DNA from: Thermodesulfobacteriota bacterium | Lineage (GTDB): Bacteria > Thermosulfidibacterota > Thermosulfidibacteria > Thermosulfidibacterales > B14-G1 | NCBI GenBank assembly: GCA_024274915.1 | Contig: JAJSAC010000063.1 | Span: forward strand, 19,976-83,975 | Length of the DNA: 64,000 nucleotides | Direction: 5' to 3' | Part shown: positions 8,628 through 62,129 of the stretch, piece after piece | Layout: each line of letters opens with the position of its first letter | Numbering within the stretch: position 1 is the stretch's first letter | The notes under the pieces: model-generated | The model's input: the letters and a program-made list of their open reading frames with translations, nothing else | The model's database searches: none | Told to the model about the DNA's origin: nothing | Made by a program: the position numbers and the translations under genes

Positions 8628-10395
8628 GGTATCTAAGCTTACTGAGCTCAGGAAACTCATCGCTTTGGGAAAGAAGAAAGGGTTTCTCACCTATGATGAA
8701 ATCCATGAGATGCTTCCTGGGGAGCTCAGTGTGCCCGAGCAACTTGAAGACATCTTTCATCTTTTGGAGGAGATGGACATCCAGGTTCTGGACCATCCCC
8801 AGGGCAAGCTGGGGACCAGTAAGGCCATATTGGGGGAGACCACAGGGGATGGGGAGCTCTTAGGCATGGTGATGGAGGAGCATGAAGAGGACTCAGGGGT
8901 TTCAGCGGATCCTGTGAGAATGTATCTCCAGGAGATGGGTTCCATTCCCCTTCTTTCCAGGGAGGAGGAGGTGGAGCTGGCCAAAAGGATCGAAGAAGGC
9001 CGGAATCTGGCCATAGAGGCTGTCATGTCTATTCCTCTTACGGTGAAGGAAATCATGAAGCTCCGGGATGGGTTGGAGGCGGAAGAGCTGGAGCTGGACC
9101 AGGTCTTCATATTGGAGGAGGATCTCTCGTCTGAAGATTCGGCTAAGGTGAGACAAAGGATTCTGCTGGAGTTGGAGGCCCTAAACAGGGTGTTTGACCT
9201 TTACGAGAAGAAGCGGAGGGAGCTCTTCCTGGGTGGTGATGCCATGACTTCGGAGGAGAGGGAGCGTATCCAGGAAGAGATAGAGAATAAAAGGATGGAA
9301 ATGATAGCCCTTATAAAGAAGCTGAGCCTTTCCAGTGCCCAGGTGGAGCGCCTTGTGGACCTTATCCGTGGGTATGTGCAGAGTGGTGACAGGGCTTTGG
9401 CCGAGATTAAGGAATGTGAGGAAGTCCTCCTCATGCCCGCTGACACTTTTATCCGGTTCTACGAAGATCTGGATACTTTGAATTCCTATGGAGAGAGGGA
9501 AGAAAGGGCCAGACAGGTGACCACTTTGTCTTTTGAGACCCTCTCTGGGTACTACGAAAAGATTTTGAAGGCCAGGGATGAGATCGGGTTCATCGAGTTG
9601 GAATCCACCCTTTCTCTGAGCGAGCTTAAAGAGATTCTCGCGGAGATCGAGAGGGGTCTGCATCAGGAGAAGGAGGCTAAGCGGCTTTTGGCTGAAGCCA
9701 ACCTGAGGTTAGTGGTGAGTATCGCCAAGAAGTATACCAATAAAGGTCTTCAGTTGCTGGATCTCATCCAGGAGGGGAATATCGGTCTTATGAAGGCCGT
9801 AGAGAAGTTCGAGTACAGAAGGGGATACAAGTTCAGCACTTATGCCACGTGGTGGATAAGGCAAGCCATCACCCGGGCCATAGCCGATCAGGCCAGGACC
9901 ATCAGGATTCCCGTTCACATGATAGAGACCATCAATAAGCTGGTGAGAACTTCCCGGCAGCTGGTCCAGGAATTGGGCAGGGAGCCCACTCCTGAGGAGG
10001 TGGCCCGCAGGTTGGAGATGGTCCCCGAAAAGGTGAGAAAGATCTTGAAGATTGCCAAGGAACCCATCTCTTTGGAGACTCCCATCGGTGAGGAGGAGGA
10101 TAGCCATTTGGGAGACTTTATTGAGGACAAGTCTATAGATTCACCAATAGACACAGCCATTGATGAGAGCCTGAGGGAGCAGATAGAGCAGGCTTTGGAA
10201 ACCCTTACCGACAGGGAGAAGACGGTTCTTAAGATGAGATTCGGTTTGGACATGGATTCGGAGCACACCCTGGAGGAGGTAGGCCGGGTTTTCCATGTGA
10301 CCAGGGAGAGGATCCGACAGATAGAAGCCAAGGCCCTGAAGAAACTCCGTCATCCTCGGAGGAACAAGAATATCAAGAGTTTGCTGGAGGTCTAG
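8614..10395 (+). CDS. rpoD: RNA polymerase primary sigma factor (sigma-70)
   Basis: A 593-residue housekeeping sigma factor. Region 1.1 opens the protein, and [11 protein letters not shown] marks region 1.2. A long non-conserved insert of about 220 residues follows, then region 2 ([33 protein letters not shown]), region 3 ([12 protein letters not shown]) and region 4 with the helix-turn-helix ([20 protein letters not shown]). It recognises -35/-10 promoters, in line with the TTGACA-type promoters in this window. It starts inside the end of dnaG with a GGAGGAGGGAG ribosome site. It meets the antiporter gene tail to tail, sharing stop-codon bases. Confidence 0.97.
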
Positions 10396-11834
10396 CGGAA
10401 GAAGATCAGGGTCACTACCACGAATATGGGGATGAGGATCACCAGGGAATATTTGAGGATGTAGCCAAAGAAGCTGGGCATCTCCACTCCGGCTTCTTCG
10501 GCTATGGATCTCACCATGAAGTTGGGAGCGTTACCTATATAGGTGTTGGCTCCCATGAAGACTGCCCCGGCGGAGATGGCCTCCAGGTAGATACCTTTCT
10601 GGGAGATGAGGTGGGCTACAGCTGTTTTTTCAGGCACTCCTGCGAAGAAGCGGCCCAGGGCAGTGTTAAGGAAAGTGAGATAAGTGGGGGCGTTATCCAA
10701 GAAGCTGGAGAGGCCACCTGTAATCCAGAAGAAGTGGTAGGGCTCTCTCACAGAGGCTATCAGGGCCCTGGCGGCACCTTCTTCCCCTGCCCTCAGGATG
10801 GCAAGGGCGGGGATCATGGTCATGAAGATACCGGCGAAAAGAATGGCCACCTCCTGGATGGGGAACCAGGTGAACTCGTTCTCTTCTCTGATCTGCCACG
10901 GGGTGAACTTGAGGGAGAGGAGTCCCATAGCCACCATAGCGGCGTCTCTGATGAGGGACTGGGTACTTCTTTCCACTCCCAGTATCTCTACGTAGCCCAG
11001 GTGGACAATGCCACTGAAAAGTACAGCTGCCACCACTCCCAAGAGGAAGAGGAAGTTGATGGAGCCCACTATTTTCAGTCTTTCCTCATCTTCTTCCCTA
11101 TCGGGCAAGGTCTCTTTTTTGAAATTGATATAGTCCATGATGAAGTAGAGGGCGATGAGAAGGCCGGCCACCGTGAGCATATGGGGTAGGATTTTGAAGG
11201 TCCAGAAAAAAGGCACGCCATGGAGGAATCCCAGGAAGAGGGGGGGATCTCCCAGGGGAGTGAGGGAGCCTCCGATGTTGCATACCAGGAAGATAAAGAA
11301 GACCACCATGTAAGTCTTTTTCTTTCGATAGGCGTTGGCTCTGAGGAAGGGCCTGATGAGGAGCATGGCTGCCCCTGTGGTACCCACCCAGGAAGCCAGG
11401 GCAGTTCCCACTGTCAGCATCCCTGTGTTGACCAAAGGGGTGCCCCGGAGTTTTCCCTTCAGTAGGATACCTCCTGCCACGGTATATAGGGACCACAGGA
11501 GGATGATGAAGGGTATGTAGTCGGCTATGAAGATGTGAAGGATTTCGTGGAGGGCTGCGCCTTTAAAGACCAATAAGAAGGGAATGGCTACTACCAATCC
11601 CCAGAAAGTGGACACTTTTCCAAAGTGGCTGTGCCAGAAATGGGGGACCAGTAGGGGGAAAAGGGCTATGGAGAGGAGAATGCCAGCGAAGGGTATGATG
11701 CTCCATAAAGGTAATTCGGTGCCAAGCTCGTGGGAGACTTCCGATGCCCATGAAGGGGTGGGGAGGATTAGAAGGGTGACACCGACCACACAAAAAATAA
11801 AAACGAGAGAGGCTGAGGATCCTTTATTACTCAT
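10392..11834 (-). CDS. sodium:proton antiporter / ion transporter superfamily membrane protein
   Basis: A 480-residue, strongly hydrophobic protein with about a dozen membrane segments. It has a signal-like first segment ending in WASEVS. Conserved-looking loops include [40 protein letters not shown] and [13 protein letters not shown], plus [19 protein letters not shown] near the end. These TTGAAM/GDPP/DNAP motifs are typical of the NhaD/ArsB-like branch of the ion transporter superfamily, usually Na+/H+ antiporters. The ion is inferred. It has its own promoter and is convergent with rpoD, sharing stop bases. Confidence 0.85.
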
Positions 11835-58150: not shown

Positions 58151-58230
58151 AACCCTTTGGAAGGGCTATCTATTTGGGCGGAAGACCTTCGGCCCAGAGG
58201 TACCACGTCAAGTTGTGAAGGAGGTGGAAC

Positions 58231-60051
58231 ATGGTTATCAAAAAGGCCCATGGGCTGCTTCTGTTGAGGCTGGGGGAAAAGTGGGAGGAAGGGCTTTCCC
58301 TGGAGAAGGTGCTGGATGCCCTTACCGGCGAGGAGCTGGAGAGTCTTTGCCAGATGAACTTGGCGGGATTGGTGGAAGAGGAGGATGGCCGCTTCACCCT
58401 CACCTACGCCGGCTCCCTGGTTTTAGACACCCTCAAAGAGGCCATGGATGCGGGTCTGCCCCATCCCGGTGAGTGGAATGGGGGCTTTCGCTGGGTGGGT
58501 TCCGAGGTGATCTCTATGTTGGAGGTGGCCCGTCATGCCCAGGGGAAGGTGGTAGGGAGCCTTCCCGTCTCTCAGGAGCTGGAGAGACGGTTTCTGGCCA
58601 AAGACGGGACCCTCTTGCCTTTGGGGGAAACCATTTTGGAGGCCTACCAACAGGCTGACCCCAGGGTCTTTGTGGGGGAGGCCTTGGCGGCTTCCCTGAG
58701 AAAGAGCCCTCCCGGTCCGGGACGCAAATCCCTACTGCCCCTTGAAGACCACCATCTCCTGGAGTTGGAGTCCATGAGGCTCCTCACCTACTCCTTGCCC
58801 TACGGTAACACCTACTCCTTCACCGGCCCTGGACAGCAGATCCGGATGGCCCTCCTCAAAGGGGTGAGCCCCATCCATCCCATAGACGATGCCCTGTTGA
58901 AGCTCCTCATCCGTGGGGGGGATCTAGGCGAGGAGGACGTGAACCGGCTCATGGCCATGGGTATCTTGAACGATGGAGGGGTGTTGCTCCCGGGTGGTGT
59001 GCATCTTAGGAAGGCGGCCCAGCTCCTCTATGTGAGTCCCGTTGCCATCAATCCATCCGTTCACCTTTCGGTGCGGGACGTGGAGGTGTTGCGTCTCTTT
59101 CCCAGGGCGGCCAGTGCCTTGTCGGGGATGATCCAGAGGGGGAGGGGGGACATTGAGCCCTTGGATTGTCCCCTGCCTGCTAGAGAGTTTAAAGAATTCT
59201 TGGCCAGGACTTCTCCAGGGATGGATGCTGGGGAGATCTCCAAGGCCCTTTACACTTTGGAGAGCTTCAAATTGGTGGAGTCCAAGGGAGGCGAAGGAGG
59301 CCTTCTCTACTCCCTCACCCCTTTGGGGAAGGGGCTGCTGCCCCTCCTTGGGGACAGAGGAGTCTCTGCCCGGGGGGTCATGGCCATCACAACCACCCGC
59401 ATGGAGCACCTTTCCCCTGGAGATTCCTGGTGTAGTGCTGCCGAAAGGGAGGGCCTGGTGGGTCAGGGCTATCCTACCAGGCTGGGAAACCAGGTGGCCA
59501 GGATAGCCAGCACTGTGGAGAGGTGGCCCCTGGTTTCGGGCCGGGACGCCCGGGTCCTCTTTGTCGTGCCCCTTTGGCATGGTGTTTTCGAGGAAGAGAT
59601 CCTGGCGCGATTCCCTGGCCAGGAGGCTGAGACCAAGGAGGCCCTGGAGCGCCTGGTGGCCCAGGGCATTCTGGATCTGCTCCCCGGTGGTCTATATCAC
59701 GTTACCCGGGTGGGGGAGAAGCTCAAAAGGGCCTTGGCCTCCGTGCCCCCGGGCTTGGAGTTTCCTCTCAACCCCCATGTGTGTCGCTTCCTCAAGGCCG
59801 TGGAAGAGGTGGGGGAGCCCATGAAGGGTAGCGGTAAGATAAGACTCGCCCCCGAGAAGCGAAAGGAACTGGAGCGTCTGGTTGATCTGGATCCTGAGGC
59901 CTACAGGGACGCCATGGTCCTGGCGGAGCAGTGCCGCTTCTTTCTCAAGGACGCCGTGACTCCCGCAGGTGTCCTGGTCCTGGAGGGCTTGGCCCTCTTG
60001 AGAAACTTCAAGATCGGGTGGGAAGAAATGGAGCTCCAATCAGGGTTTTAA
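58231..60051 (+). CDS. large protein of unknown function built of winged-helix-like segments (possibly DUF505)
   Basis: A 606-residue soluble protein with no membrane segments or known catalytic motif. At least four segments share a helical pair followed by a small beta wing ending in an LT-x-x-G pattern: LCQMNLAGLVEEEDGRFTLTYAG (about 40), ALYTLESFKLVESKG with YSLTPLGKGLL (about 345), LERLVAQGILDLLPGGLYHVTRVGEKL (about 470), and one near the end. The style and length recall DUF505 proteins, but this is from memory. AGGAGGTGG precedes the ATG. It is divergent from bioB. Confidence 0.6.
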   Translation: MVIKKAHGLLLLRLGEKWEEGLSLEKVLDALTGEELESLCQMNLAGLVEEEDGRFTLTYAGSLVLDTLKEAMDAGLPHPGEWNGGFRWVGSEVISMLEVARHAQGKVVGSLPVSQELERRFLAKDGTLLPLGETILEAYQQADPRVFVGEALAASLRKSPPGPGRKSLLPLEDHHLLELESMRLLTYSLPYGNTYSFTGPGQQIRMALLKGVSPIHPIDDALLKLLIRGGDLGEEDVNRLMAMGILNDGGVLLPGGVHLRKAAQLLYVSPVAINPSVHLSVRDVEVLRLFPRAASALSGMIQRGRGDIEPLDCPLPAREFKEFLARTSPGMDAGEISKALYTLESFKLVESKGGEGGLLYSLTPLGKGLLPLLGDRGVSARGVMAITTTRMEHLSPGDSWCSAAEREGLVGQGYPTRLGNQVARIASTVERWPLVSGRDARVLFVVPLWHGVFEEEILARFPGQEAETKEALERLVAQGILDLLPGGLYHVTRVGEKLKRALASVPPGLEFPLNPHVCRFLKAVEEVGEPMKGSGKIRLAPEKRKELERLVDLDPEAYRDAMVLAEQCRFFLKDAVTPAGVLVLEGLALLRNFKIGWEEMELQSGF

Positions 60052-60590: not shown

Positions 60591-61017
60591 TGCCTGCCTT
60601 GTGGGGGTGGAGTGCAGGTATGATGCCACCCACCGGGCTCTGGCGCGGGAGGTCTTGGAGAAGCTTAGGAGCCGTTATCTCTTGGTTCCCGTTTGTCCCG
60701 AGCAACTTGGCGGCTTACCCACTCCCAGGGATCCTGTCCAGTTTTATGGGGGGGACGGGAAAGCTTTTTGGGTGGGGAGGGCGCGGCTTTTGACCCAGCA
60801 AGGAGGGGACATTTCCCCTGCCTTCTTGAAAGGGGCCGAGGAGGTTTTGAAATTGGTTCACCTCTTGGATATAAAGGTGGCCATCCTCAAGGAGAAGAGC
60901 CCTTCCTGCGGTGTCTCGCTGGTTTACAGGGAAGGGAAGTTGGTAAGGGGGATGGGTGTGGTGACAGCGGTTCTCACCTCCAGGGGGTTAGAGGTCCTTT
61001 CGGGGGATGATCTGTGA
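60565..61017 (+). CDS. DUF523 family protein
   Basis: A 150-residue protein with the DUF523 features: ISACLVGVECRYDATHRA at the start, VPVCPEQLGGLPTPRDP, and ILKEKSPSCGV near the end. The three conserved Cys motifs suggest metal or thiol chemistry, but no activity is established that I know of. The start is GTG inside the CheY-like gene, and it ends in a GTGA overlap with the rhomboid gene. Confidence 0.88.
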   Translation: MERVPCLISACLVGVECRYDATHRALAREVLEKLRSRYLLVPVCPEQLGGLPTPRDPVQFYGGDGKAFWVGRARLLTQQGGDISPAFLKGAEEVLKLVHLLDIKVAILKEKSPSCGVSLVYREGKLVRGMGVVTAVLTSRGLEVLSGDDL

Positions 61018-61763
61018 TACCCCTCAAAGACGAGAACCCTACCGAAATCGTTCCCTACGTCACCATAGGCCTAATAGTGGTCAACGTCTTGATCTTCTTC
61101 TTTGTGGGTCCCGCCATAGGCGCCAAGATAAAACTGCTAGTTATGTACCATGGCCGGCTGGTGCTCCTGAAGGGATCCCAGGCCTTGGCCTACGTGTATG
61201 GCTTCATTCCTTATGAGCTTTTTCAAGGGAAGGAACTCACCCCCCAGTATCATGTGCCCGTTCTGGTCACCCTCTTTGCTTGCATGTTCCTCCATGGTGG
61301 TCTCCTCCACCTGGGGGGAAACATGCTCTATCTCTGGATCTTTGGAAACAACGTGGAGGATGAGTTGGGCCATGTTCCTTTTATCATCTTTTACATCCTG
61401 TGTGGTCTTGTCGCTTCCCTGGCCCATGCGGTTCTCACTCCCTCTTCCCGAATTCCCATGATAGGGGCCAGTGGAGCCATATCGGGGGTGTTGGGGGCCT
61501 ACGCCATCCGATTTCCTTGGGCTAGGATCAAAACTCTGATTTTCCTCTTCTTCTTTATCACTGTGGTGGACATCCCTGCCCTCTTTTTCCTGGGGTTCTG
61601 GTTCCTCTTCCAGTTCATGAGCGGTACGGCTGCCCTGGGATCGGGGGTCTCCAGCGGTGTGGCCTGGTTCGCCCATGTAGGGGGATTCGTTGCAGGCATG
61701 GTTTTCTTCCGCTTCTTCCCCAAGAGGAAGAGGGGGGTGAGGATCAGTTACAGGATAGATTAA
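61014..61763 (+). CDS. rhomboid-family intramembrane serine protease
   Basis: A 249-residue inner-membrane protein with six or more spans. The HGGLLHLGGNMLYLWIFGNNVEDELG segment, the nucleophile motif IGASGAISGVLGAY and the partner His in WFAHVGGFVAGM form the Ser-His dyad, so it is likely active. A long extra loop (GKELTPQYHVPVLV) is usual for this group. The start is GTG in a GTGA overlap with DUF523. It ends at the word-repeat block before the leu operon. Confidence 0.93.
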   Translation: MIPLKDENPTEIVPYVTIGLIVVNVLIFFFVGPAIGAKIKLLVMYHGRLVLLKGSQALAYVYGFIPYELFQGKELTPQYHVPVLVTLFACMFLHGGLLHLGGNMLYLWIFGNNVEDELGHVPFIIFYILCGLVASLAHAVLTPSSRIPMIGASGAISGVLGAYAIRFPWARIKTLIFLFFFITVVDIPALFFLGFWFLFQFMSGTAALGSGVSSGVAWFAHVGGFVAGMVFFRFFPKRKRGVRISYRID

Positions 61764-62037: not shown

Positions 62038-62053
62038 GTGTAGCGACTTCTGA

Positions 62054-62090
62054 GGGCCACGGGCGGGCCAGCCCGTGGCCCTTTTCTTTT
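62054..62090 (+). terminator. first leu attenuator terminator
   Basis: GGGCCACGGGC pairs perfectly with GCCCGTGGCCC across a 6-base loop. The run TTTTCTTTT follows at 62082-62090. Confidence 0.92.
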
Positions 62091-62129
62091 GGGCCACGGT
62101 TCAACCAAGGATCGTGGCCCTTTTTATTT
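62091..62129 (+). terminator. second leu attenuator terminator
   Basis: GGGCCACG (62091-62098) pairs with CGTGGCCC (62113-62120), followed by TTTTTATTT. The arms have the same sequence as the lower part of the first terminator, so the two can exchange partners. Confidence 0.85.

Follow-up and report, generated by a model that had tools for sequence, protein, structure and literature searches.

A divergent DUF505 protein with eight predicted winged-helix-like units, from a family linked in its relatives to a filament-type prefoldin

The gene at positions 58231-60051 of the window (the whole 64,000-nucleotide stretch of DNA that was analysed) encodes a protein that sequence comparison places as a divergent member of DUF505, a known but functionally uncharacterised family. 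A high-confidence structure prediction shows the protein as a rigid row of eight winged-helix-like units, and our best overall explanation, to which we assign a probability of roughly 0.45, is that this row serves to dock the components of a proteostasis assembly in thermophiles, as a scaffold or adaptor. Gene order and co-occurrence in relatives point to a link between the family and UPF0128, a Csm5-like RAMP and a filament-type prefoldin, and recurrent adjacency points to a further link with a membrane serine protease of the SDH type. DUF505 and UPF0128 are both families without known function, and no paper on either was found in the literature searched. This apparently undescribed, prefoldin-centred gene set is the interesting part, beyond the window protein: it gives the orphan DUF505 family its first testable role and makes one testable system of separate unknowns.

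The open reading frame is intact and comprises 606 codons on the plus strand, exactly as claimed in the preliminary description. It starts with ATG, and in the alignment Met 1 coincides with the first position of almost every relative. A strong Shine-Dalgarno sequence, AAGGAGGTG, lies just 5' of this ATG at 58231.

58218-58230, plus strand: ribosome-binding region (AAGGAGGTGGAAC) just 5' of the ATG, read directly from the sequence.
58231-60051, plus strand: gene for the 606-residue DUF505 protein, an open reading frame matching PF04458 (E 5e-116), single copy in the genome (model pLDDT 92, pTM 0.92).

Comparison with the PF04458 (DUF505) profile gave a score of 388.9 bits, against a gathering cut-off of 28.7 bits, with both halves of the 622-position model (1-292 and 365-620) matched co-linearly in one frame, thereby bearing out the earlier suggestion that the protein might belong to this family. 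Models from NCBIfam, PDB and PADLOC gave no good match (best PADLOC E 0.002), and a search of genome contigs with the window protein alone as the query found no relative. Compared to other DUF505 proteins, the window copy belongs to the same length class and retains the FRW-GSE-type motif and the T-x-x-G of the wing, but its identity to the relatives found is only 27-38%. Among 61 near-invariant positions, 49 are kept and 12 are changed, including K384, K533 and E534, the last of which is invariant elsewhere. The window copy is also the most divergent row of the tree, with a branch of 2.09 versus a median of 0.12.

An AlphaFold model built from a 62-row alignment was obtained with a pLDDT of 92 and a pTM of 0.92; single-sequence folding was unusable (pLDDT 36). 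Units were assigned from DSSP, Foldseek and profile evidence. DSSP analysis of the model revealed eight helices-wing-helix repeats across the 606 residues, the two-strand wings being full in units 1, 3, 5 and 7 and short or reduced in units 2, 4, 6 and 8.

58243-58449, plus strand: unit 1, residues 5-73, winged helix with a two-strand wing at 48-57 and LTYAG (DSSP of the model, motif).
58501-58653, plus strand: unit 2, residues 91-141, winged-helix-like with a reduced wing (DSSP of the model).
58678-58857, plus strand: unit 3, residues 150-209, winged helix with a wing at 185-197 and FTGPG (DSSP of the model, motif).
58888-59031, plus strand: unit 4, residues 220-267, winged-helix-like with a reduced wing (DSSP of the model).
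59179-59349, plus strand: unit 5, residues 317-373, winged helix with a wing at 349-362 and LTPLG, where the duplicated C-terminal half begins (DSSP, N/C duplication).
59368-59514, plus strand: unit 6, residues 380-428, winged-helix-like with a reduced wing and PTRLG (DSSP of the model).
59539-59736, plus strand: unit 7, residues 437-502, winged helix with a wing at 481-491 and VTRVG (DSSP, motif).
59851-60003, plus strand: unit 8, residues 541-591, winged-helix-like with a short wing and VTPAG (DSSP, motif).

The preliminary description had counted four or more tandem winged helices ending in an LT-x-x-G-type wing, and had named a predicted structure without tandem winged helices as the outcome that would speak against it. 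The model shows such units in tandem, in a number that had been underestimated (eight, as 2 x 4). A hydrophobic residue followed by T-x-x-G occurs five times (positions 57, 197, 362, 491 and 576) versus 0.72 expected (5000 residue shuffles, p 0.0006), indicating that the repetition exceeds chance. The T-x-x-G is located where the wing passes into the final helix of each unit. An x-x-G follows the wing in all eight units, with further sites at 128, 251 and 415. Alignment of the profiles of residues 1-290 and 330-606 gave a score of 55.2 (probability 93, E 3.7e-7, 213 columns), far above the controls (at most 23.6 over 60 column shuffles; 17.7 with a reversed profile), indicating that the chain arose by duplication of an array of four units. 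Comparisons between single unit pairs were weaker than that between the two halves. Together, DUF505 membership and the winged-helix array of the window protein are close to certain.

Local Foldseek matches were to single winged-helix regulators, the best being of the PadR type (e.g., PadR 5dym, probability 0.98). No whole-chain match was found in the PDB (none below E 0.006) or a viral fold library, or by PDB sequence search. Winged-helix regulators have basic, DNA-binding recognition helices, whereas the recognition helices of DUF505 are net negative in 8/8 units (family mean). The family has a pI of 4.8-6.2 and a mean net charge of -18 for the whole protein. Since both the recognition helices and the family are acidic, classical DNA binding by DUF505 appears unlikely and protein docking is favored over it, net charge being a crude guide to binding. 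Thus, of the nucleic-acid- or protein-binding scaffold proposed earlier, the protein-binding option fits better. DUF505 might instead be a DNA- or RNA-binding regulator or ribonucleoprotein scaffold, in which the eight winged helices track along a nucleic acid and the RAMP marks an RNA-handling complex. Winged helices are mostly nucleic-acid binders, and both the PadR-type regulators among the best local matches and the RAMP-like partner (see below) are in agreement with this function, as are the remote matches, which include RPC62 and the mRNA-binding fragment of SelB; the acidity of the proteins and of all eight recognition helices, together with the lack of a whole-chain match below E 0.006, makes it unlikely. 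Under the protein-docking explanation, the faces of the winged helices would contact other proteins instead of DNA, and a RAMP carrying RNA may be among these partners. Docking as the mechanism of DUF505 is itself proposed tentatively.

Analysis of gene order in relatives revealed UPF0128 (PF03673) immediately upstream of the DUF505 gene, at a distance of 10-140 bp, in 17 loci from five phyla (Chloroflexota, Caldisericota, Hippea-type Campylobacterota, Thermaceae and WOR-3). A cluster of antisense open reading frames that masked UPF0128 in GC-rich loci was discarded after tblastn. A 240-residue RAMP-like protein adjoins DUF505, or is encoded near it, in Thermodesulfobacteriales, Thermaceae, Anaerolineales and Aquifex-type loci. 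This protein has no Pfam match and matches Csm5 RAMP models (PADLOC E 3e-6); the four best PDB matches of its profile are Csm5 chains, with E values of 0.0018-0.07 over about 45 residues. The loci of the Aquifex type (L070, L074 and L120) have a gene run (L070:6826-11962) that starts with prefoldin alpha and continues with two membrane genes, UPF0128, RAMP, a 99-residue prefoldin-beta-like protein and, finally, DUF505; most of these genes touch or overlap. The linked prefoldin alpha (PF02996, E 4e-28) has as its best PDB match 6vy1, "prefoldin subunit alpha 2" (E 1e-30; 110 bits versus at most 52 for ordinary alpha subunits), which we take to be the gamma-prefoldin filament chaperone of Methanocaldococcus jannaschii. 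By these scores, the linked subunit most resembles the "alpha 2" (gamma) type, which forms filaments. For the 99-residue protein, the resemblance to prefoldin beta is weak (PF01920, E 6.5e-6, slightly below the cut-off; PDB E 0.37). Prefoldin alpha and a short helical gene are found immediately upstream of DUF505 in L081/L125 and L124 (genomes G192/L081 and G193), with UPF0128 and RAMP located on a different contig in G193. A membrane SDH-type serine protease is encoded within 2 kb of DUF505 in eight loci from five phyla and overlaps DUF505 in WOR-3. The adjacency of DUF505, UPF0128, RAMP and prefoldin has been lost in many lineages.

A truncated Csm5-like RAMP without recognised Cas neighbours was observed in L030, L031-L033, L036, L039, L042, L070 and L074, and may be a case of a CRISPR-type fold serving outside CRISPR. 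The linked set could also be a CRISPR-derived or defence system, comprising the Csm5-like RAMP and effectors, with DUF505 as a defence component. The Csm5 matches of the RAMP-like partner (PADLOC E 3e-6; PDB E 0.0018) are the basis for this explanation, which we regard as very improbable: the neighbours listed include housekeeping genes and, among them, no other recognised Cas gene, the best PADLOC match of DUF505 is weak (E 0.002), and no DUF505 relative was found in viral contigs or plasmids. The Thermaceae locus L033 (2429-2926) encodes, between DUF505 and RAMP, a 165-residue protein without Pfam match that is winged-helix-like by eye. A protein of 360-390 residues, also without Pfam match, is encoded directly downstream of DUF505 at L087:9679-10827 and in related loci, in the Desulfurobacteriaceae only. 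Fragments of DUF505 (9200-10483) and UPF0128 (8941-9132) with in-frame stops lie side by side in G083:C43, and stem either from degeneration of one copy of the set or from a fault in the assembly.

In the window itself, bioB (PF06968/PF04055; 57116-58150, minus strand) is located 80 bp from the DUF505 gene in the divergent orientation. This proximity was correctly reported in the preliminary description, but in the neighbour scan of DUF505 loci bioB was not conserved beside the gene. On the 3' side, the window encodes a response-regulator receiver protein, a 2-thiouracil desulfurase (PF04463) protein and a rhomboid protease.

61014-61763, plus strand: rhomboid protease gene, 0.96 kb downstream of DUF505 (PF01694, E 4e-32; neighbour scan).

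Since L036, L040 and L051 likewise have a rhomboid no more than 2 kb from DUF505, the rhomboid is a possible, weak candidate for a functional neighbour of the window DUF505, although the recurrent proximity may be due to chance. In the Thermaceae locus L036 (10001-14770), DUF505, RAMP, rhomboid and SDH-type protease genes follow each other in tight order. Further downstream in the window (62052-62120), the start of a leuA-like (2-isopropylmalate synthase) gene bears two strong terminator-like hairpins arranged back to back.

Co-occurrence was analysed in 136 genomes of one phylum (that of G018), in which DUF505 was detected in 65, UPF0128 in 47, RAMP in 48 (threshold E < 1e-10) and prefoldin in 47. 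Carriers of the partners fell within the DUF505 set in 45/47, 46/48 and 45/47 cases for UPF0128, RAMP and prefoldin, respectively, the exceptions without DUF505 being G171 (86% complete) and G174 (78% complete). The association with DUF505 was significant by genome (Fisher p about 1e-17, a figure that is inflated by shared descent within the phylum) and by genus (14/14, p 2e-5), the genus being the level up to which shared descent was corrected for. Prefoldin and UPF0128 are separated by at most 3 kb in 38 of 45 genomes of this phylum. A functional link of the DUF505 family to the prefoldin, UPF0128 and RAMP set is very probable. Both UPF0128 and RAMP are missing from 16 of the 65 DUF505 genomes, and neither these partners nor prefoldin were detected in the window's own genome (G000, 93% complete; best prefoldin E 0.06). 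A single assembly gap could hide both UPF0128 and RAMP, because they are usually adjacent. The absence of the partners from the window genome and from the 16 genomes indicates that DUF505 must also work without them.

A scan of GTDB contigs led to the retention of 79 DUF505 loci, nearly all of which come, by title, from thermophile groups or from metagenome-assembled genomes of such groups. They belong to Aquificota, Thermodesulfobacteriota, Chloroflexota, Caldisericota, Thermaceae, Campylobacterota, WOR-3, Dictyoglomota, Thermotogaceae and some Flavobacteriales/Chlorobiota metagenome-assembled genomes. Only Thermotoga maritima and Methanocaldococcus jannaschii carried DUF505 among 14 control genomes. 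Reverse gyrase was uninformative as a marker of thermophily, with a match in 136/136 genomes of the G018 phylum. The thermophile distribution of DUF505, together with several weak Foldseek matches to aRDF chains of Pyrococcus furiosus, would fit a ribosome-associated stress or hibernation factor similar to archaeal aRDF. This resemblance was set aside as too weak (Foldseek probability about 0.15, TM about 0.2, no sequence match), and such a function is very unlikely, as aRDF is reported to be restricted to Pyrococcus (PMC11724365; PMC13324472).

The distribution is also patchy, with DUF505 present in 4/9 genomes of the window's phylum, 1/40 of the G020 phylum and 65/136 of the G018 phylum. Within the window organism's order, three genomes carry DUF505, which is absent from the two congeners examined and from three other near relatives (G003-G005). 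Comparison of descent and transfer within the order gave an AU p of 0.061, with the window copy on a long branch. The window copy could be a decaying or repurposed orphan from which the family function is gone, in view of its branch, by far the longest, the 12 changed near-invariant positions, the partners not found in its genome and the two congeners lacking DUF505. We consider this improbable, since the frame is full-length and intact, the ribosome-binding site is strong, 49 of the 61 near-invariant positions are kept and the fold is confident. A scaffold function would probably be retained by the window copy in a reduced or diverged version, performed alone, the other members not having been found. 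We are less sure of the role of this copy than of that of the family, because it is the most divergent and its partners were not found in its genome.

For the family, we propose that DUF505 would act in the cytosol, docking the components of a protein quality-control assembly of thermophiles as its scaffold or adaptor. The set, handling protein and perhaps RNA, would be organised around the filament-type prefoldin. Its members would be a gamma-type prefoldin and its beta-like partner, UPF0128, the Csm5-related RAMP, two membrane proteins and membrane proteases, the latter in some lineages only. That they form an undescribed thermophile proteostasis module common to bacteria and Methanocaldococcus, with DUF505 as the scaffold, is a proposal to which we give slightly less than even odds.

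Several winged helices per chain are found in RPC62/RPC3 of RNA polymerase III, in TFIIH p52 and in the C-terminal region of SelB. These proteins were among the remote Foldseek matches of the DUF505 model, with a TM of about 0.1, E values of 0.006 or worse and no sequence match, and the likeness is an architectural analogy only. Gamma-prefoldin is, in contrast, a putative partner of DUF505 rather than a homologue, and none was found in the window genome. In M. jannaschii it forms filaments, and lethal heat shock induces it 26-fold, its role being stated to be unclear (PMC11117396). M. jannaschii, the gamma-prefoldin organism, carries DUF505, UPF0128 and prefoldin in the control genome, and the proposed module, if true, would supply the missing partners of gamma-prefoldin.
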